Positions 21,333-44,470 of a stretch of 64,000 nucleotides of DNA are shown here, in pieces. Under the pieces are notes generated by a model. That model searched no databases. It worked only from the letters and a program-made list of their open reading frames with translations, and had not been told where the DNA came from. Numbering within the stretch: the stretch's first letter is position 1; every line of letters begins with the position of its first letter. Origin of the DNA: Natrarchaeobaculum sulfurireducens (GTDB lineage: Archaea; Halobacteriota; Halobacteria; Halobacteriales; Natrialbaceae). Position numbers and translations under genes: made by a program. Location: assembly GCF_003430825.1 (NCBI RefSeq), contig NZ_CP024047.1:1860001-1924000 (forward strand), written 5' to 3'.

Positions 21333-22694
21333 TTACTTGTAGGGGTTTTCGACGACGACGGTCTCCTCGCGGCCGGGGCCGACGCCAACGGCATAGATGG
21401 GCACGTCGAGTTCGTCAGAAACGAACTCGAGATAGTCCCGTGCGTTTTCGGGGATAGCGTCGTACCCCTCAGCAGCGACGGCTGCCCAGTCGACGTCAGG
21501 CCAGCCCTCGAACGTCTCGAAGGTGGCCTCACACTGGCCCCACTGTTCGGTCGTCGGGGGCATCGTCAGGAGTTCCTCGCCGTCGAAGTCGTAGCTGACG
21601 CCGATTTTGACCTCCTCGAGACCTGCGAGTACGTCGACGTGATTGATCGCGAGGCCGGTAAAACTGCTCGCCCGTGCGGCGTGGCGAAGCATCGGCAGGT
21701 CGAGCCACCCGACACGGCGCGGGCGACCGGTGACAGTGCCGTACTCCCCACCTTCGTCGCGGATGTAGGTCGCGAGTTCCTCTTCGGCCTCGTCGGCTTC
21801 CGCTGGGTCATAGCCCGGCGTCTGTCCCTCGACACCGCCGAGTTCGGTCGGGAGCGGGCCGGTACCAACGCGCGAGAGGTAGCCTTTGACGATACCGACG
21901 ATCTCGCCGGTGCCGACGACGCCTGGACCGAGGCCGCTGCCGACGGCTGCGCCGCCAGCGGTCGGGTTCGAAGAGGTGACGTACGGGTAGACGCCGTGGT
22001 CGATGTCAAGCGAGGTTCCCTGGGCACCCTCGAGCATGACTTCGTCGCCAGCGTCGATCCGCTCCTGGAGGAACGTCCCACAGTCGACGGTCATGTCTTC
22101 GGCGGCGAGTCGCTCGCCGTACTCGAGATAAGTCTCATAGAGGTAGTCGATGTCGAACTCCTCGCCAGTCTCCTTGCCGAAGACTTCTTCGGCGAGTGCT
22201 TTCTTCTGGGGAACGACGTACTCGAGTCGCTCACGAAGGATTTCGGGGTCGAGGAGGTCGCCGATGCGGACGCCACGGCGGCCAGCTTTGTCCTCGTAGG
22301 TCGGGCCGATCCCTCGTTTGGTCGTCCCGGCGGCGAGGTCTTCTTTCTCGGTTTCTTCGATTCCATCGAGCGCCCGGTGATACGGGAGGATGACGTGTGC
22401 GCGCTCGGCCACGCGTACGTCAGGCTCGAGGCCGCGCTCGCGAAGCTGGTCGAGTTCGTCGAACAACGTCTCCGGATTGACGACGCAGCCATTGCCGAGG
22501 ACGCCGACTTTGTCCCGGACGGCGCCCGACGGCACGAGCGATAACTTGTACTTCGTACCGTCGTGAACGACGGTATGTCCAGCGTTGTCGCCGCCCTGAT
22601 AGCGGACGACGACGTCGGCTGCGTCGCCATACACGTCGACGACGCCGCCTTTGCCTTCGTCGCCGAGTTGCGACCCGACGATTGTGACGGTCAT
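21333..22694 (-). CDS. purA: Adenylosuccinate synthetase
   Basis: Joins IMP and aspartate using GTP, the first step from IMP to AMP. The N-terminus has GSQLGDEGKGGVVD (GTP-binding glycine-rich loop with catalytic Asp) and GGDNAGHTVV (catalytic histidine). Other motifs are GIGPTYEDKAGRRGVRIGDL, LEGAQGTSLDIDHGVYPYVTSSN and GRPRRVGWLDLPMLR. 453 residues, normal. ATG 22694 is chosen because the 40-residue extension to 22814 is not conserved-looking. Confidence 0.97.
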   Translation of the reverse strand: MTVTIVGSQLGDEGKGGVVDVYGDAADVVVRYQGGDNAGHTVVHDGTKYKLSLVPSGAVRDKVGVLGNGCVVNPETLFDELDQLRERGLEPDVRVAERAHVILPYHRALDGIEETEKEDLAAGTTKRGIGPTYEDKAGRRGVRIGDLLDPEILRERLEYVVPQKKALAEEVFGKETGEEFDIDYLYETYLEYGERLAAEDMTVDCGTFLQERIDAGDEVMLEGAQGTSLDIDHGVYPYVTSSNPTAGGAAVGSGLGPGVVGTGEIVGIVKGYLSRVGTGPLPTELGGVEGQTPGYDPAEADEAEEELATYIRDEGGEYGTVTGRPRRVGWLDLPMLRHAARASSFTGLAINHVDVLAGLEEVKIGVSYDFDGEELLTMPPTTEQWGQCEATFETFEGWPDVDWAAVAAEGYDAIPENARDYLEFVSDELDVPIYAVGVGPGREETVVVENPYK

Positions 22695-22946
22695 AACAGC
22701 GGCGGATTCTTGCCGGGCCGATAAACAGATTACGGTATTGGCGGGCCCCGATTCTAAATCTGTACACGGTCGTGGATACATGCTGTTCAGAACACCAGGT
22801 GTGTTGGCCCGCACAGGTCGTGTCCCCTGAATTCGTCGCTGATACCGCCATACAGACGACCGATGACGGCCATGAAGCCGAAACGTTAACTACTCGCAAA
22901 AACTAAGAACGAGTTGTCACCCTTCTGGTCGGATCGCGAGAGTAAC

Positions 22947-22954
22947 TTTTAAAA
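22947..22954 (+). promoter_or_regulatory. TATA box for HTH gene
   Basis: TTTTAAAA within AACTTTTAAAAGG, centred 30 nt before ATG 22981, indicating a leaderless transcript. Confidence 0.6.
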
Positions 22955-22980
22955 GGTCCTAAGACAAGTTAACAAATGCC

Positions 22981-23286
22981 ATGATAGACCGACTTGAGAA
23001 GGAAGTCGACATGTTGGAACGACATCTGCAGGTCCTGAAGATGGTTATCGAGAACGAGCCGATCGGGATCGTCAAGATGTCGAACGAGACGGGTTACCCT
23101 CACCACAAGGTTCGGTACTCCCTGCGTGTCTTAGAAGAAGAGAACCTCATCGAACCCTCCAGCCAGGGTGCGATCAAAACCGAGCGTACCGCCGAGTTCG
23201 TCGACGAACTCGACGGCAAGATCGACGACATCGTCGACAAGCTCGAGTCGATGAAGATCGAAGACGTCGCCGAAATCGAAGGCTAA
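22981..23286 (+). CDS. Winged-helix DNA-binding protein (small)
   Basis: 101 residues, starting with a helix (MIDRLEKEVDMLERHLQVLKM) then a winged-helix unit: IGIVKMSNETGYPHHKVRYSLRVLEEENLIEPSSQGAI, where YPHHKVRYSLRVL is the likely recognition helix, and a final helix suited to dimerisation (LDGKIDDIVDKLESM). Widely conserved type of haloarchaeal predicted regulator; targets unknown. Followed by two hairpins in the convergent gap. Confidence 0.8.
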   Translation: MIDRLEKEVDMLERHLQVLKMVIENEPIGIVKMSNETGYPHHKVRYSLRVLEEENLIEPSSQGAIKTERTAEFVDELDGKIDDIVDKLESMKIEDVAEIEG

Positions 23287-23294
23287 TTCTCTCT

Positions 23295-23314
23295 CGGTCC
23301 GCCCTGACGGACCG
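23295..23314 (+). terminator. Stem-loop after HTH gene
   Basis: CGGTCCG-CCCTGA-CGGACCG: a perfect 7-bp stem with a 6-nt loop, starting 9 nt after the stop codon at 23286. Possible terminator or mRNA end stabiliser. Confidence 0.45.
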
Positions 23315-23400
23315 TCCCCTCGTCTAGTACGTCTCACGAGCCACAACCACGGCCGCGAGCACGGTCTTCGGATCTGATACCGACCCCAATCGACCTGAAC

Positions 23401-23435
23401 GGTCTCACAGTCTGTAGAAGACTGCCGCTGAGACC
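23401..23435. terminator. Strong hairpin between convergent genes
   Basis: GGTCTCACAGTCT-GTAGA-AGACTG, a CCGC bulge, then TGAGACC: 13 base pairs around a 5-nt loop with one 4-nt bulge. It sits between the 3' ends of two convergent genes and could act on either transcript. Confidence 0.45.
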
Positions 23436-23467
23436 GACAATGTCCTCAACCGACCGGTCCCGGTCCG

Positions 23468-25915
23468 TTAGAGTTCCGGCACGCTCATGTGGAAGCCGTC
23501 GGACTGGGATTCGACCAGACAGAGGTGATAGCCCTGCTTTCGCGAGACGTTGACGAAACTCGACTTCGAACTTCGGCTGAGGAACCCACCGGTGGTCGCC
23601 TGCTCGGTGACCTCGAGTGCGCCGGGTTCGAAGTAACTCGAGGTGACGGCAATCGCGGCCGCGAGGTCCGGATAGTTCGCTTTCACCGCGGAGGCGGCCT
23701 CCTCGAGGCCGGCGAGTAGTTCCTCGCTCGCCGGTTCTCTCGAGTCGTTCACCGTCACGACGACGAGCGGATTGCCCATCTTGTCGTACGCGACGACGTC
23801 GAACGAGACCTGGTCGGGAACGTCCTCGGTGTCGTCGTCGGCCAGCGAGATCGACCCCTGAAGCTCCGCTCGATCGATTCGTGGGATGGCGTCGTAGAGG
23901 TCGGCTAGCCCGCTCGCGTGACCGGTGTCCCGGATCTCGTAGAGCAACACTTCGGTGAGCCAGTCGACGAACTGGTAGGCCATCGTTCCAGTGAGAAACT
24001 CCTCGTAGGACTGGCCGTCGACGGCCACGTCGGCGGCGTCGAACTCGGTGTGCTGTTCGAGTCGGAGGTTCGCGGCGACGTCATCCCGGTCGGCATCGCC
24101 TTCGTGAGCCGTTCGAAGCGTCGGCTCGCTTTTGGATCCGTATCGGACGAAGAGGTTCGTTCCGGAGCGGGCCTGGGCAGCCGAGAGCTGTCTCGAGGCC
24201 GCCACGGTCGTCTCGTCGTCGCGGGCCTGCTCGAGTTCGGTCTCGAGGTCTGCGATGTGCGACTGGAGTCGTTCGACGCGCTCGGTCAGCTCCTGATTCT
24301 CCGACTGGAGCCGGTCGCGTTCGGACTCGAGGCGCTCGGCTTTCGAGACGAGTTCCTCTCGGCGGGACTCGAGGCGCTCGACGCGCGCTTTGAGTCGCTC
24401 GATCGGGTGCTCAGCACGCGATTCCGACTGGGCGCTGGCACTCGCCTGTGAGCCGTCAGTCGAGCGATTCGCGGATCTCGACCGTGTCTGTTGTCGCTGG
24501 GTTGCGGTCGACGTCCCAGTCGCGTCGGCCGATCGCGATTCGCTCGCGACAGCCGATCGGCCCTCACCGGAGCGGCTCGCTTTCTGGCGGGGCTTCGTTG
24601 CTTCCTTGGACGGCCTCGAGTCGGCGTTGCTGGTCTTGTCGGGGTCGATCGACGGAATGCTTCGCGTCTCTCGCCACTGTTCTTCCTCCTCGAACCGTTC
24701 CTCGAGTTCGGATTCGGCCTCGTCGTCGGCCGAATCGGACCCACCGCTGGTGTCGTCGGCCGAATCGGACGTGTTGTCGGTATCGATCGTAGAGGCCACA
24801 GCGTCGGCGGTCGATTCAGCGGCGTCGACGCCGTCGACGCTCTCTTCCGTCCACGAAATGTCGTTCTGCTCGAGTTCGGCCGCCGCCGCCTCGACCTCTT
24901 CGGGCTCGAGTGCCGAGCCGCTCGAGTCGTCGGCGGTGTCGTGGGTTGGTTCAGTGCTGGTGTCGTGGGTTGGTTCAGTGCTGGTGTCGTGGGCTGGTTC
25001 AGCACTGGTGTCGTTGACCGGTCCGGCACTGATACCGTCGGCCGGTTCGGCGCTGGTGTCGTCGGTCACCTCAGCACTGGTGCTTTCGAGCGAGTCACCC
25101 TGAGTCGAGTCGGCCGTGGTGATTCCGGCCGGCTCCGGCTCTGTAGTAACCGAGTCGTCGGCGGTGATCCCGGACGTGGACGAGACTCCGTCGGTCCCGG
25201 TGTTTCCACCCGAGATGTCGATCGGTTCGATCGCCGATTCGGTCGGGTCGGCCGACGGTTCCGGGCGATTGCTCGATGACGAGTTGGCCGCTGTCGTGGG
25301 CGTGTTCGTTCCGGATTGGGCGTCGACTGAGCCGTCGTCGTCGCCGGTGTCGCCTCCAGTTTCGGTGTCGTCGTCCGTTTCCGGAACGTCGGTCACCTCG
25401 ACCTCGATGTCGATGACCTGATAGATGCCGACTTCCTCGGCAGCGCGGTCGAACGCATCGTCGCCAGTGAGCAGGCGTTCGGCGTTGCCGATGTACGCCG
25501 CAGCCATCCGTCGGCCGCCGTAGTAGACGGCGTAGTAGTCGCCGCTGAGAACGTTTTCGCTCAGTTCGACGTAGCCGGTGAACGATCCGTCACGGAGGGT
25601 CTTGTCGACCTCCTCGAGCGGCGTCTCGTTCGTATAGTACTTCGCTCGCGTGTCGCCGCCGCGTTCTTCCATCGAACACAGCAACGGCAGGGAGGGGTGT
25701 GGGGCCTCGTAGATGGTGCCGGACGCGTTCTCGAAGTCCTCGATGTCGCCGTCGAATACGCCGACGACGCGGCCGTTGAGCATGAACAGCCACGTGCGGC
25801 TTACACTGACGGCGCCCGAAAAGCCACTCGCAGCGAGATCGGAGAGCGCAGCGTAACCGCCGCTGAACGGGCGAGAATCCCATTGTTCGACGCGCTTTTT
25901 CGTGCGCGGTTCCAT
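23468..25915 (-). CDS. Large three-part haloarchaeal protein with coiled coil (DUF7527-like)
   Basis: 815 residues, no signal peptide. The N-terminal domain (1-175; FSGGYAALSDLAASGFSGAVSV, YYAVYYGGRRMAAAYIG) is globular. A long Asp/Ser/Thr-rich disordered linker follows (about 176-510), including 8-residue repeats such as DTSTEPTH. A coiled coil (about 515-595, RLKARVERLESRREELV...) leads to a globular C-terminal domain (about 600-815, with ASFVNVSRKQGYHL-type ending). The layout suggests a scaffold or sensory protein; I cannot name a function. It converges with the HTH gene. Confidence 0.7.
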   Translation of the reverse strand: MEPRTKKRVEQWDSRPFSGGYAALSDLAASGFSGAVSVSRTWLFMLNGRVVGVFDGDIEDFENASGTIYEAPHPSLPLLCSMEERGGDTRAKYYTNETPLEEVDKTLRDGSFTGYVELSENVLSGDYYAVYYGGRRMAAAYIGNAERLLTGDDAFDRAAEEVGIYQVIDIEVEVTDVPETDDDTETGGDTGDDDGSVDAQSGTNTPTTAANSSSSNRPEPSADPTESAIEPIDISGGNTGTDGVSSTSGITADDSVTTEPEPAGITTADSTQGDSLESTSAEVTDDTSAEPADGISAGPVNDTSAEPAHDTSTEPTHDTSTEPTHDTADDSSGSALEPEEVEAAAAELEQNDISWTEESVDGVDAAESTADAVASTIDTDNTSDSADDTSGGSDSADDEAESELEERFEEEEQWRETRSIPSIDPDKTSNADSRPSKEATKPRQKASRSGEGRSAVASESRSADATGTSTATQRQQTRSRSANRSTDGSQASASAQSESRAEHPIERLKARVERLESRREELVSKAERLESERDRLQSENQELTERVERLQSHIADLETELEQARDDETTVAASRQLSAAQARSGTNLFVRYGSKSEPTLRTAHEGDADRDDVAANLRLEQHTEFDAADVAVDGQSYEEFLTGTMAYQFVDWLTEVLLYEIRDTGHASGLADLYDAIPRIDRAELQGSISLADDDTEDVPDQVSFDVVAYDKMGNPLVVVTVNDSREPASEELLAGLEEAASAVKANYPDLAAAIAVTSSYFEPGALEVTEQATTGGFLSRSSKSSFVNVSRKQGYHLCLVESQSDGFHMSVPEL
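24935..25078. repeat. Six tandem 24-bp repeats inside a gene
   Basis: Units start at 24935, 24959, 24983, 25007, 25031 and 25055; the first two are identical (GGTGTCGTGGGTTGGTTCAG + TGCT) and later ones drift. In the minus-strand protein each unit encodes eight residues (D-T-S-T/A-E-P-T/A-H type). Confidence 0.8.
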
Positions 25916-39751: not shown

Positions 39752-40867
39752 ATGACCGAGTCATCCGTCATCGAGAACAGACTCGAACGCGCCCGCGAGG
39801 CCGCAGCCGAGCGCGACCTCGAGGCACTGGTCTGCTTTCCGAGTTCGAACCTCACCTACCTCTCGGGGTTCGAAGACGAGCCGATGGAACGGCACCTGTT
39901 CCTGTTCGTCACTCCCGAGCGGGAGCTGTTCGTCGCGCCCGAGATGTACGACCACCAGATTCGCGACGCGTCTCCCGTCGAAGACGTCCGAACGTGGAGC
40001 GACGACGAAGACCCGACACGGCTGCTCGAGGCGGTCGGCGACGACCTCGACATCGGCAGTGGGCGGCTCCTGGTCGACGACCGCATGTGGGCGTTGTTCA
40101 CCCAGGACCTGCGGGCGACATTTCCTGACGCCTCGTTCGGCCTGGCTGGCGAGGTGCTCTCTGACCTGCGTATCCGCAAAGACGAGGCGGAACTCGAAGC
40201 TCTCCGCGAAGCCGCGCGGATTTCAGACCACGTCAGTGAGCAGATCCGGGCACTCGCTGGCGAGGCGATCGGCATGACGGAGGCCGAACTCGCCGCCGAA
40301 ATCGACCGTCGGCTCGAGGACGCTGGCGGTTCCGGCGTCTCCTTCGAGACCGTCGTCGGCAGCGGGCCGAACGGTGCCCGGCCACACCATCGCCACGGCG
40401 ACCGCGAGATCGAATCCGGCGATCCCGTCGTCCTCGATTTCGGCACCTGGGTTGAGGGCTATCCCGGCGACCAGACCCGGACGGTCGTCTTCGACGGCGA
40501 GCCGTCAGAGCGGTTTCTGGATGTCCACGAGGCCGTCCTCGAAGCCCACAACGCTGGCGTCGAGGCTGCTGGCCCCGGTGTCGAGGCTCGCGAGGTCGAC
40601 CGCGCCGCCCGGCAAGTACTCGAAGAACGCGGCTACGGTGACGAGTTCATCCACCGCACCGGCCACGGCGTCGGCCTCGACGTCCACGAACCGCCCTATA
40701 TCACGAGCGAGAACGCCCGCAAACTCGAGCCCGGAATGGTGTTCAGCGTCGAACCTGGCGTCTACCTCGAGGGTGAGTTCGGCGTCCGCATCGAGGATCT
40801 GGTCGTCGTCACCGATGGCGGCTGCGAGCGGCTGAACGACTCGCCTCGAGGATGGCAGTCGCTTTGA
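39752..40867 (+). CDS. M24-family metallopeptidase (Xaa-Pro dipeptidase-like)
   Basis: 371 residues with an N-terminal creatinase/prolidase domain (1-135) and a C-terminal pita-bread catalytic domain. All five metal ligands are visible: Asp in VLDFGTW, Asp in GDQTRTVVF, His in RTGHGVGLDVHE, Glu in VEPGVYLEG and Glu in RIEDLVV. It starts 31 nt after hyuB and probably belongs to that operon, so it may cleave the ring-opened product or a proline-like peptide. That role is inference; the family also includes creatinase. Confidence 0.88.
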   Translation: MTESSVIENRLERAREAAAERDLEALVCFPSSNLTYLSGFEDEPMERHLFLFVTPERELFVAPEMYDHQIRDASPVEDVRTWSDDEDPTRLLEAVGDDLDIGSGRLLVDDRMWALFTQDLRATFPDASFGLAGEVLSDLRIRKDEAELEALREAARISDHVSEQIRALAGEAIGMTEAELAAEIDRRLEDAGGSGVSFETVVGSGPNGARPHHRHGDREIESGDPVVLDFGTWVEGYPGDQTRTVVFDGEPSERFLDVHEAVLEAHNAGVEAAGPGVEAREVDRAARQVLEERGYGDEFIHRTGHGVGLDVHEPPYITSENARKLEPGMVFSVEPGVYLEGEFGVRIEDLVVVTDGGCERLNDSPRGWQSL

Positions 40868-40890
40868 ATGGGCACTCGAATAGCAGGGAA

Positions 40891-40919
40891 CTGCTCTGTT
40901 AAACCCTCAATTAGTGAAA
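40891..40919. repeat. Single IS6-type terminal-repeat remnant
   Basis: GCTCTGTT-AAACCCTCAATTAGTGAAA matches the right terminal repeat of the element at 48142-48395 (GGTTTTGTTGAAACCTTCAA...) at most positions. Only this end is found, facing rightward into the AT-rich island. Confidence 0.5.
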
Positions 40920-41026
40920 TATTCAGGAGTTATCCTAAAGGGGAAGCGCCATAATCACATCTCAAATCAAATGTAGAATTTTGTGAATCCCAACTACTAG
41001 TAAATAGTGGAATGTAGAGACGAAAT

Positions 41027-42001
41027 CTACTGTGTGAGACTTACAGAGTGTTCTATTGTTTCTACGTTCTCTCCATCGTAAAAGTCGCATTCTCCACTTA
41101 AGTAAACAAGTTCCTTCCAATCGCCTTCATAACTTTCACGATAGGCAAGGGAGTTCGTGTCAAGAATTGATGTACTTTCTGCGGAACTACCTGTGGATTC
41201 GTATTCCCATTCACCCACATCTAGGTATTCGACTGAACTATCTTCATAATATGTACCTCCAACTTCCACTTCGTATCCAATTTCAATACTTGGGTCTCTA
41301 CTTGCCTCTAAGGCGACCGATACAGTGCCGTCTCGGTTTCCGTCATCACGAGGGGTATGATAATCGAAATCCATCTCATGACCTCCACGCCCCCAGTTGT
41401 GGGTTGTCATTCCATCGGCAATGCGATAGCCAGAATCACATATGCGATCCATCATTCCAGGGTACGCCCAAGTCTCATCACGTAGCGCGAAGTGACTAGG
41501 GTCCTCATCACTTCGGTACAATACATATTTGTTCTGTAGTGAGCCATATGGGCAATTTTCAGTGACTATATCATCATCGTAAACCGCAGACCAGTCACTA
41601 GTATCTTGTGTCTGAAATTCAGACCCAGATTTTTCTTTAAATTCTTTTTGTTTGTCTTTATTTCTCTGATGAAGTGCGGCTTGATCCCGTTTATTTACTG
41701 CAAACCCGAAATCACTATGAATTGTATTGTTGGTTGCGGTAACAACATATGACACGAGTTCACCTTTCGAACTGGGAATTGGTTTGATAACGTCTTTAGA
41801 ATCAATTCCATTTTGTTCAGCTACGGCTTGGATCAATTCCAGTATTTCATCTTGACTAATCGGGTTTTGTAAACTTCCTCTAATAGAGTATACTTCGCGA
41901 CCATCTCCTTTTCCGCTAACGGTCTTTGCTGATCCTGCTACTGCTAATGACCCTATTCCAGCCAACACCTTTCGGCGATTGGTTTTATCCATCATTGCCA
42001 A
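41027..42001 (-). CDS. Exported protein of unknown function, probable Tat substrate, AT-rich
   Basis: 324 residues. The N-terminus TNRRKVLAGIGSLAVAGSA has twin arginines, a hydrophobic core and an Ala-x-Ala-type end, fitting Tat export. The mature part is hydrophilic: a helical first third (SQDEILELIQAVAEQNG), a region with CPYGSLQNKYVLYRSDEDPSH, ICDSGYRIADGMTTHNWGRGG, and a beta-rich C-terminus with repeated Tyr/Glu motifs. Codons favour A/T at third positions, unlike neighbours, so recent transfer is likely. No family is recognised. It is divergent from the lipoprotein gene at 42102. Confidence 0.75.
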   Translation of the reverse strand: MAMMDKTNRRKVLAGIGSLAVAGSAKTVSGKGDGREVYSIRGSLQNPISQDEILELIQAVAEQNGIDSKDVIKPIPSSKGELVSYVVTATNNTIHSDFGFAVNKRDQAALHQRNKDKQKEFKEKSGSEFQTQDTSDWSAVYDDDIVTENCPYGSLQNKYVLYRSDEDPSHFALRDETWAYPGMMDRICDSGYRIADGMTTHNWGRGGHEMDFDYHTPRDDGNRDGTVSVALEASRDPSIEIGYEVEVGGTYYEDSSVEYLDVGEWEYESTGSSAESTSILDTNSLAYRESYEGDWKELVYLSGECDFYDGENVETIEHSVSLTQ

Positions 42002-42101
42002 CCTATAATTAAATACACTTCTATTTATATTTTCCGTTAGCCATTTCCACTAGATACGGGTTTAGGAAAGAACCAAGTGATAAAGGAGTGAAACAGTGAA
42101 T

Positions 42102-43247
42102 ATGAAACGCCGTTCGTTTAGCCTAATAGCTGTGTCGTTGGTAACCGGTTGTCTCTCCATGAATTCGACTGCTAGGAATGACTCGCCAGCCGAGCGAATA
42201 TCGGCGTTCGGCACTGAAGAATGGCCACAACAAGGTGGCGACCCAATGAATCGATATCACGGATACGTGAGTGGAGAATTTGAAAAGGATATCCTTGAAG
42301 TTCAAACCTGGAACACTGACAGCAGAAGTATTCGAGCCCCACCTATTACCTCACAAACAAATACATTTCTCATAGATGGATCCGAGGGAGTTGTTACATT
42401 TGGGACAGACGGGCAGTATGAACGGACCTTTGATTATGTTCTTCCCATTGGAGCAGCTTACATTGATGATGACCTCTTCGTGTTAGGTTCAGAAAAATTA
42501 GTACGTCTCTCAGATAACGAGGTCTCCTGGAGCGTTCCGTTAGAGGTTCCCCCTCAATCTATCAAAGCTACTGGCGACCAAATTCTCGTAACACCGGATC
42601 TGGCAGATAGCATTGTGAGCATCCATAATGCCGATACTGGCGAAATAGTTACGACTACATCAGTTGATGGTACAATATCCTCAGCAGCTTTCTCTGAGAA
42701 CGGCACTGGCTATCTTTTGACCTCCCGCGGCACAGTTATTGCGATTAGTGGAGACCAAGTTGCTGTTCTTGCAGATTTGGATACCTATGGTACGCAAATT
42801 TCTGTTGAAAAGGATATTTTATACGTCGCTGGAAACGATGGCAATGGACTGATCACTGCGCTCGATATAGAGACGGGGGAGATATTATGGGAGATAACGG
42901 AGCCCGGACTTGGTGATTGGGGTTTTGCTGTCGATGATAGGCATGTTTATACATTAACCAATTCTGGAACGCTCACAGCCATATCTGAAGGGGAGATAAT
43001 CTGGACCGCCAAATCAGAGGGGTCATTCCAGAAGCATGCCGGCGCCGACCGTGCACCTGTCTGTACAGATGATTTTGTAATGTATATTGGATCTGAAATG
43101 GCTCTAGTTGTGGTTGACCGTGAGACCGGTACTGAACAGGGACGATATACATGGAATCCAGTTTCACCAAACCGTCCTATTCCATATGGGAATGGGGTGT
43201 TACTGTCTGACCAGGTGGGCCTCTATTGGCTTCCAGTAGACGATTGA
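42102..43247 (+). CDS. PQQ-like beta-propeller lipoprotein, AT-rich
   Basis: 381 residues. The N-terminus MKRRSFSLIAVSLVTGCLS contains an RR pair and a lipobox (TGC), so it is probably exported by Tat and lipid-anchored. The remainder repeats a propeller-blade pattern: EEWPQQGGDPMNRYHGY at the start, then LFVLGSEKLVRL, LYVAGNDGNGLITALDIETGEILWEI, VYTLTNSGTLTAISEGEIIWTA and ALVVVDRETGTEQGRYTW. AGGAGTGA (42084-42091) precedes it; GTG 42096 is an alternative start. No enzymatic residues are evident; binding or assembly role possible. Composition matches the divergent neighbour. Confidence 0.8.
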   Translation: MKRRSFSLIAVSLVTGCLSMNSTARNDSPAERISAFGTEEWPQQGGDPMNRYHGYVSGEFEKDILEVQTWNTDSRSIRAPPITSQTNTFLIDGSEGVVTFGTDGQYERTFDYVLPIGAAYIDDDLFVLGSEKLVRLSDNEVSWSVPLEVPPQSIKATGDQILVTPDLADSIVSIHNADTGEIVTTTSVDGTISSAAFSENGTGYLLTSRGTVIAISGDQVAVLADLDTYGTQISVEKDILYVAGNDGNGLITALDIETGEILWEITEPGLGDWGFAVDDRHVYTLTNSGTLTAISEGEIIWTAKSEGSFQKHAGADRAPVCTDDFVMYIGSEMALVVVDRETGTEQGRYTWNPVSPNRPIPYGNGVLLSDQVGLYWLPVDD

Positions 43248-43492
43248 CTCAGTACATTGCTGGGCTCAGTCTCTGATTCAGGCTGCCATACGCGGTTGGT
43301 CACCCGAATTGCGGAAAGGCGGGCGTTGCCCCGTCGATCGCCACGAGCGGGCCGACAACGATGTGGAAACCGCTGTACGTTCGAAACGGAGGGTGGGAGG
43401 CTTTTCATCGAAGCCAAGCGGGAACGAAGCTCTCTCGAGATTTTACCGAGGGCGCGGCGAAGACGCGCCCACACGCAGAGCCAAAGTTCGTC

Positions 43493-44470
43493 TCAGAACA
43501 GGTGGTCGTCCAGCAATTTCGCTGGGCCGCCGACCTCCCAGACGGTCGTGGAGACGCCGCAGTCGGCGATCTCTTCTTCGACGTACTCGGCGTGCTCGTC
43601 GGTGGTGTTGACGTAGACGGTCGCACCCGTGTCGGTCGAGAAGTAGACCGGAATGTCCTCTTCTTCGCGGAGTTCGCGCACGCGGTTGAAGATGGCGAGC
43701 GTCGCGGGCTGCCAGTAGAGCCAGGCGGAGGGCCCGGTCATCGTCGTCGCTGCGAGCGAGAGCGAGTCGTGTTCGGCGAGTTCGAACGTCCGCTCGAAGT
43801 CGTCGCTTCGCAGGGCGTCGCGCATCTCGGCGATCTGTTCGTGAATGTGTGCGTTCCGGGCCTGGAACATGTGACTGTCGGCGGCCTCGCGGTGAGCGTC
43901 TTCGGTCTCTTTGTGATAGGGGACGAGTCCGACGATGATCTTCAGGTCCTCGTGGAGGTTCGTCGGAACCCGTCGGGAGCGACAGTCCTCGTCGTTCAAT
44001 CCGGTGTACAGTTGCGAGAACGCACCCGTTACGGCTCGAGCTGCAGATGCGGACCCGACGCGAGCGATCGTCGAAATCTCCGGCAGCGAGCACTCGAGGT
44101 CGGCAGCCTCGGCCAGCGCCACCGCAGCGGCTGCGAAGCCGGACGACGACGAGCCGAGGCCGACGTTCGATGGGAAGCTATTCTCGCTCTCGAGGCGGAC
44201 CGGGTAGACGGTGTGAGCGGCGTCAGACATCGAACGCGCCTTCTCGACGACGGCTTCGACGCGTTCGGCGGCACGCCCCTCGAGTTCCTCGCCGTCGACG
44301 ACGAAGGTGTCATCGTCGTAGTCCATCGAGAACTCGACGGTCGTTCGCGTGTGGCTCGGGGCCGTACAGAGGCTGATGCTATCGTGATAGGGGAGCCGCT
44401 CGATCTCGTCGCGCATCCCGTGGTACTTGATGAGTCCCTGGATGGGGTGGGCCATCGCGGTGGCTTTCAT
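43493..44470 (-). CDS. mvaD: Phosphomevalonate decarboxylase
   Basis: GHMP-superfamily enzyme of the archaeal mevalonate route to isoprenoid lipids. ATP-binding-type motif FPSNVGLGSSSSGFAAAAVAL; other segments are HPIQGLIKYHGM near the N-terminus and ASAARAVTGAFSQLYTG. The C-terminus has IPVYFSTDTGATVYVNTT, a typical GHMP motif. 325 residues. Haloferax has an enzyme of this group shown to decarboxylate mevalonate 5-phosphate; assignment to phosphomevalonate rather than diphosphomevalonate rests on that knowledge. Confidence 0.88.
   Translation of the reverse strand: MKATAMAHPIQGLIKYHGMRDEIERLPYHDSISLCTAPSHTRTTVEFSMDYDDDTFVVDGEELEGRAAERVEAVVEKARSMSDAAHTVYPVRLESENSFPSNVGLGSSSSGFAAAAVALAEAADLECSLPEISTIARVGSASAARAVTGAFSQLYTGLNDEDCRSRRVPTNLHEDLKIIVGLVPYHKETEDAHREAADSHMFQARNAHIHEQIAEMRDALRSDDFERTFELAEHDSLSLAATTMTGPSAWLYWQPATLAIFNRVRELREEEDIPVYFSTDTGATVYVNTTDEHAEYVEEEIADCGVSTTVWEVGGPAKLLDDHLF

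Follow-up and report, generated by a model that had tools for sequence, protein, structure and literature searches.

What does a short AT-rich island with two divergent genes do in a GC-rich archaeal chromosome, and how did it get there? The question is raised by a locus of Natrarchaeobaculum sulfurireducens, within a stretch of 64,000 nucleotides (contig NZ_CP024047.1, positions 1,860,001 to 1,924,000) that was analysed as a whole and is called the window below. The island (40.9–43.25 kb in the window; 2.38 kb) has a gene content of two: P1, on the minus strand, and P2, on the plus strand. P1 specifies an exported protein of a large archaeal family, previously undescribed and new as far as we have checked, and P2 a propeller-type lipoprotein. 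The reading we favour, tentatively and with some doubt, is that P1 is a pore former secreted against neighbouring cells and perhaps activated by proteases, that the cassette replaced a nitrilase gene, and that P2 protects the producer or docks P1.

Composition and Gene Content of the Island

The GC content of the island is 0.440, against a mean of 0.639 and a minimum of 0.596 in 114 other 2.38-kb intervals; in 100-bp steps, it falls to 0.36 at 40901 and is back at 0.65 at 43301. The dinucleotide difference (delta*) is 240, while the mean elsewhere is 51 and the maximum 106. GC at third codon positions (GC3) is 0.335 in P1 and 0.398 in P2, versus 0.80–0.86 in four flanking genes. A first-pass annotation, made from the sequence alone, had described an AT-rich island with two divergent genes and suggested GC3 and dinucleotide profiling; both measures set the island apart and, together with the overall GC and the layout of open reading frames (ORFs), they bear out that description. 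The two genes are separated by an AT-rich intergenic stretch (42002..42095) with TATA-like motifs in both directions, which may serve as the promoter region for both.

P1 (41027..42001, minus strand) is called from a TTG as a protein of 324 amino acids, the likely start being an internal ATG at 41995 or 41992. Its twin-arginine (Tat) signal region (41912..42001, minus strand) has the arginine pair at residues 9–10, and this pair is invariant across the first 10-sequence alignment of the family. We found no match to P1 in Pfam or NCBIfam, in keeping with the unrecognised family to which the twin-arginine protein had initially been assigned.

P2 (42096..43247, plus strand; 383 amino acids, likely start ATG at 42102) carries at its N-terminus an arginine pair and a lipobox, VTGC, with the cysteine at 42150..42152 (plus strand), a typical predicted lipoprotein signal. 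It matches PQQ_2 (PF13360) with an E-value of 4.7e-16 and 59.6 bits, above the gathering cut-off of 27.6, so that its early identification as a propeller-type lipoprotein stands. With the BamB equivalog profile TIGR03300, it scores 44.1 bits, far under the cut-off of 285.2, which does not identify it as BamB proper. P2 shares its length and its lipobox with many haloarchaeal lipoproteins of the PQQ_2/BamB type. It is archaeal and lies beside a P1-family gene; the role of BamB in outer-membrane assembly is not expected for it, as haloarchaea have no outer membrane.

A Family of Exported Proteins across Archaea

None of 60 related genomes yielded a match to P1. A wider single-sequence search returned 11 diverged matches within the order (best 24–31% identity, a few of them marginal), and a ten-sequence profile (A1) detected dozens of full-length members in 392 genomes; many of the weakest profile matches spanned the Tat signal alone and were excluded from the count. 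The set used for family analysis consists of 53 ORFs in 51 haloarchaeal neighbourhoods, which form one sequence cluster. The proteins, about 320–430 amino acids long, are exported, diverse and patchily distributed. Common to them are the arginine-pair signal and the N-terminal alpha/beta region, the motifs PYG, PG and HDW, a segment resembling W-S-Y-x-Q-P and, later, a W and PGS; Tat-signal Pfam matches occur in 10 of 37 members. The GC content of the P1-family gene is below that of its locus in 46 of the 51 cases (mean difference −0.078, p 2.5e-9).

A phylum-wide search uncovered members outside the order which share the same core and carry Sec-type instead of Tat signals; many of the genomes concerned are presumably those of methanogens. 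Several of these members are tandem duplicates. Three consecutive P1-family genes occur in a non-haloarchaeal genome (L186, 5267–10368), and there are tandem pairs in L196, L197, L200, L115 and L109, which recall two-component systems. Halorussus vallis and Natronosalvus amylolyticus have plasmid-borne copies whose products are annotated as hypothetical. At G178:C1:3181218, G209:C1:1230910 and G005:C103:30319, in-frame stops interrupt P1-family genes or fragments of their signal region, which suggests frequent decay of genes of this family.

Recurrent Membrane-Anchored Neighbours

Genes for PQQ-type propellers adjoin 12 of the 51 P1-family genes. All 12 ORFs that match the propeller profile in the 51 neighbourhoods lie at most 841 bp from a P1-family gene, and none lies farther away in the 0.55 Mb of neighbourhood sequence. 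The probability that 12 out of 12 fall within 1 kb by chance is 1.6e-9, or 4.8e-8 when each of two pairs of close relatives is taken as one (10 lineages). Each genome with a propeller-adjacent member has at least ten PQQ_2 matches. The pairing of the P1 family with propellers is not due to chance, and it survives the outcome by which the first-pass annotation would have had it refuted, namely homologues that never neighbour each other. Six of the 12 propeller genes are situated 7–55 bp downstream of the P1-family gene on the same strand. Propeller-adjacent members are scattered over the tree of the P1 family; many of the associated propellers form one clade, outside of which fall P2 and the propellers of L109 and L127. 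Two propellers of that clade (L021, 904–2094; L162, 1291–2589) occur with no P1-family gene within about 1 kb and could be orphan protectors.

Propellers are not the only partners. A family of small, cysteine-containing lipoproteins is encoded directly downstream of the P1-family gene in L088, L093 and L094 (pairwise E-values down to about 1e-13), and a family of anchored proteins of 212–249 amino acids, with an N-terminal anchor or a lipobox, directly downstream in L184, L185, L190, L192 and L194 (pairwise E-values down to 1e-19); in L187, a domain related to the latter lies in the same long frame, across an assembly gap. These small anchored partners have no convincing match in Pfam. By Pfam, an LVIVD propeller gene is located downstream of the P1-family member in L195 (2204–4600) and a Kelch propeller gene upstream of the one in L201 (5451–6446), so that propellers of three unrelated sequence families (PQQ_2, LVIVD and Kelch) are found near P1-family genes. 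The adjacency of a gene for a secreted protein and a gene for an anchored partner is thus recurrent.

These arrangements bear on a looser rival explanation, in which the two genes have no joint role: P1-family and propeller lipoprotein genes would be carried by mobile AT-rich cassettes of one kind and come together in genomic hot spots. The genes of the P1 family and of the window's island are indeed AT-rich and patchy, the propellers of L021 and L162 stand alone, and P2 lies outside the associated clade. We nevertheless consider shared mobility without a joint role improbable, given gaps of 7–55 bp with the same orientation in half of the 12 loci, spread across the P1 tree, the confinement of propeller ORFs, within the neighbourhoods, to the immediate vicinity of P1-family genes, and the filling of the same slot by unrelated anchored genes.

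Predicted Fold and Possible Function of P1

The fold of P1 was modelled with AlphaFold2 (AF2) from eight sequences. The top 15 Foldseek matches of the model in the PDB are all members of the leukocidin/alpha-hemolysin superfamily (probability 0.99–1.00, E-values 1e-4 to 1e-3), as are all 50 of the 50 entries listed by VIA-align. The best VIA-align matches are the pro-toxins 1xez and 8jbq, with 192 and 219 residues aligned and a Z of 9.3, which exceeds the best Z of 7–8 typical of unmatched models and is not decisive. A fold search in BFVD gave no E-value below 0.001. The model comprises an N-terminal alpha/beta region (residues 37–123; 41633..41893, minus strand) and a beta-rich C-terminal region (residues 133–324; 41030..41605, minus strand), which is conserved in haloarchaea and other lineages and for which the model suggests a leukocidin-like fold. 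The alignments with 1xez and 8jbq begin at residues 26 and 12 of the model, while most mature toxins align over about 150–160 residues, from residues 127–135; as the pro-toxins align from earlier residues than the mature toxins, there are hints that the N-terminal region is a pro-domain. Within the C-terminal region, residues 226–248 (TVSVALEASRDPSIEIGYEVEVG; 41258..41326, minus strand) alternate between polar and apolar (6.37 versus 4.18 after shuffling, p = 0.02) and are a candidate membrane hairpin, in a part of the model of low confidence.

In the reading we favour, P1 most likely folds as a small beta-barrel pore-forming pro-protein, with an N-terminal (pro-)domain and a beta-sandwich bearing an amphipathic hairpin. 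It would be secreted in folded form via Tat and be activated outside the cell, perhaps through cleavage by extracellular proteases, whereupon active P1 would insert into the membranes of competing archaea as a halocin-like weapon. P2 would bind P1 at the surface of the producer, either blocking self-action or acting as its docking site.

A number of observations weigh against pore formation by P1 and protection by its partner. The P1 model is of moderate confidence (predicted local distance difference test, pLDDT, 59; predicted template modelling score, pTM, 0.61), its Foldseek matches have template modelling scores of only about 0.3, and a second AF2 model, of a homologue from Halocatena marina, failed (pLDDT 38). 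In 14 genomes that carry the family, nothing matches the Pfam family Leukocidin (PF07968), even with E-values up to 10 allowed, nor does any member of the family set A6, and the P1-family profiles, including a wider C-terminal one, detect no related sequence in the PDB. Family-wide, alternation is modest (4.34 versus 3.55 after shuffling, with p < 0.05 in 13% of members), and polar/apolar alternation is common in beta proteins. As for the partners, 39 of the 51 haloarchaeal neighbourhoods are without a PQQ propeller, P2 is not in the main clade of the associated propellers, and the divergent arrangement, correctly described for the window at the outset, occurs there alone among the 12 propeller loci, the usual layout in the family being same-strand.

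The main rival is a pair for surface recognition or attachment, in which P1 would be a secreted or surface-located beta-sandwich binder (an adhesin, or a binder of sugars or of the S-layer) and the anchored partner its scaffold. The beta-rich model of P1, the nearly always anchored partners, the recurrence of PQQ_2, LVIVD and Kelch propellers, which are typical protein-binding platforms, and the tandem paralogues in other archaea would all suit such a pair. However, the structural neighbours of the P1 model are specifically pore-forming proteins and not adhesins, and partners with unrelated folds are more readily accounted for if they are protectors that diversified than if they all serve as a single scaffold; we regard this alternative as possible but rather unlikely. 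The two-part surface module originally proposed for P1 and P2 is upheld in its recurrent anchored neighbours, less so in that most members are without a PQQ propeller and other partners occur; P1 itself looks, in the model, more like a secreted protein of pore-forming type than like a surface component.

Alternatively, P1 could be a secreted enzyme or enzyme-like protein, e.g., a hydrolase, served by an anchored accessory lipoprotein. It is exported and beta-rich, and the few polar residues that are conserved (HDW, D, S) might have a catalytic role, but no enzyme family is matched in Pfam, NCBIfam or the PDB sequences, and most of the near-invariant positions hold G, P, W or S, which points to structure and not to catalysis; we regard an enzyme as very unlikely.

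The pore-former reading can be extended to the phylum, which we do with somewhat greater reserve than for P1 itself: leukocidin-like pro-pore-formers, exported by Tat or Sec, may be carried on mobile AT-rich cassettes together with interchangeable membrane-anchored protectors, the latter being PQQ, LVIVD or Kelch propellers and the two unrelated anchored families.

Origin of the Island

The island occupies a variable interval (40868..43492) between two conserved genes, one for an M24 metallopeptidase (39752..40867, plus strand; by Pfam) and one for a diphosphomevalonate-decarboxylase-like protein (43493..44470, minus strand; by Pfam), the latter 94–97% identical in two genomes of the same genus. 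In the closest of these (G002), the flanking genes, 89% and 97% identical to those in the window, enclose a gene for a carbon-nitrogen hydrolase (nitrilase) of normal composition, and there is no island in the interval. The second same-genus genome (G003) has the nitrilase gene (90% identical) beside the decarboxylase gene and the peptidase gene elsewhere. The genome of N. sulfurireducens is without such a nitrilase gene altogether. Since the relatives have the nitrilase beside the decarboxylase and this genome has none, the simplest explanation is that the cassette probably took the place of the nitrilase gene.

Acquisition of the island as a foreign cassette by horizontal transfer, as the first-pass annotation had proposed, is well supported by its composition, by the nitrilase at this place in relatives, by the absence of P1 matches from 60 related genomes and by the patchy, AT-rich character of the family. 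A mobile element with a visible footprint was considered and rejected: there is no tRNA gene at the island and there are no flanking direct repeats. So was a viral origin, as no relatives occur in IMG/VR or phage records and PHROGs gave nothing convincing. Elsewhere, transposase-like ORFs (identified by eye) adjoin two P1-family genes, in L134 (4299–5438) and L193 (5606–6399), consistent with mobile surroundings. The window has a second, weaker GC dip (0.56–0.59) at 22001–23500, just 5′ of an adenylosuccinate-synthase-like gene.

Relation to Known Systems and Significance

P1 resembles the pro-toxins of the leukocidin/alpha-hemolysin superfamily (Vibrio cytolysin type) in its C-terminal fold as predicted by the moderate-confidence model (VIA-align Z of 9.3), its apparent N-terminal pro-domain, its export and its alternating stretch, a candidate hairpin. 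It differs from them in being archaeal, without detectable sequence similarity and without lectin domains, and in that its family is exported by Tat or Sec and paired with genes for anchored partners.

NisI-type bacteriocin immunity relies on an anchored lipoprotein encoded beside a secreted membrane-active agent. By analogy, P2 could be such a lipoprotein next to a putatively membrane-active P1, albeit one of a different fold and with no sequence relation shown.

Among haloarchaea, antagonism through secreted precursors that proteases activate is well established. In Haloferax mediterranei, the halolysin HlyR4 cuts the secreted precursor of halocin H4 (HalH4) to an active C-terminal fragment, and a second antagonistic precursor, HapP (HFX_0892), is active via its N-terminal helices (PMC12893001). 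The cleavage of HalH4 would be a precedent for the proposed activation of P1 by proteolysis. P1 would resemble both in being a secreted haloarchaeal precursor with antagonistic activity; HapP differs in that its activity resides in N-terminal helices, whereas P1 is beta-rich. A pattern taken from a published halH4 primer (PMC12893001) does not occur in 170 genomes of the family to which G358 belongs. A halocin of the C8 type was rejected for P1, which has no cysteine-rich C-terminus (by eye).

Literature searches, with subscription papers and a 2019 survey of archaeal toxins outside their scope, returned no description of the P1 family or of archaeal leukocidin-like proteins. Predicted pore-forming toxins of unconfirmed type are mentioned for Woesearchaeota in one paper (PMC12352652). 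The association of the P1 family with anchored partners is likewise new as far as we have checked.

Halocin activity is reported to be near universal in haloarchaea, although few halocin proteins are known, and how the producers protect themselves is mostly open. The P1 family provides a candidate set, in haloarchaea and in other archaea, that can be searched for in genomes and has candidate protectors encoded alongside. If the predicted fold is true, pore formers of the leukocidin kind, which are known as toxins of bacteria, would have a place in the competition among archaea, and self-protection by anchored propellers would become directly testable.
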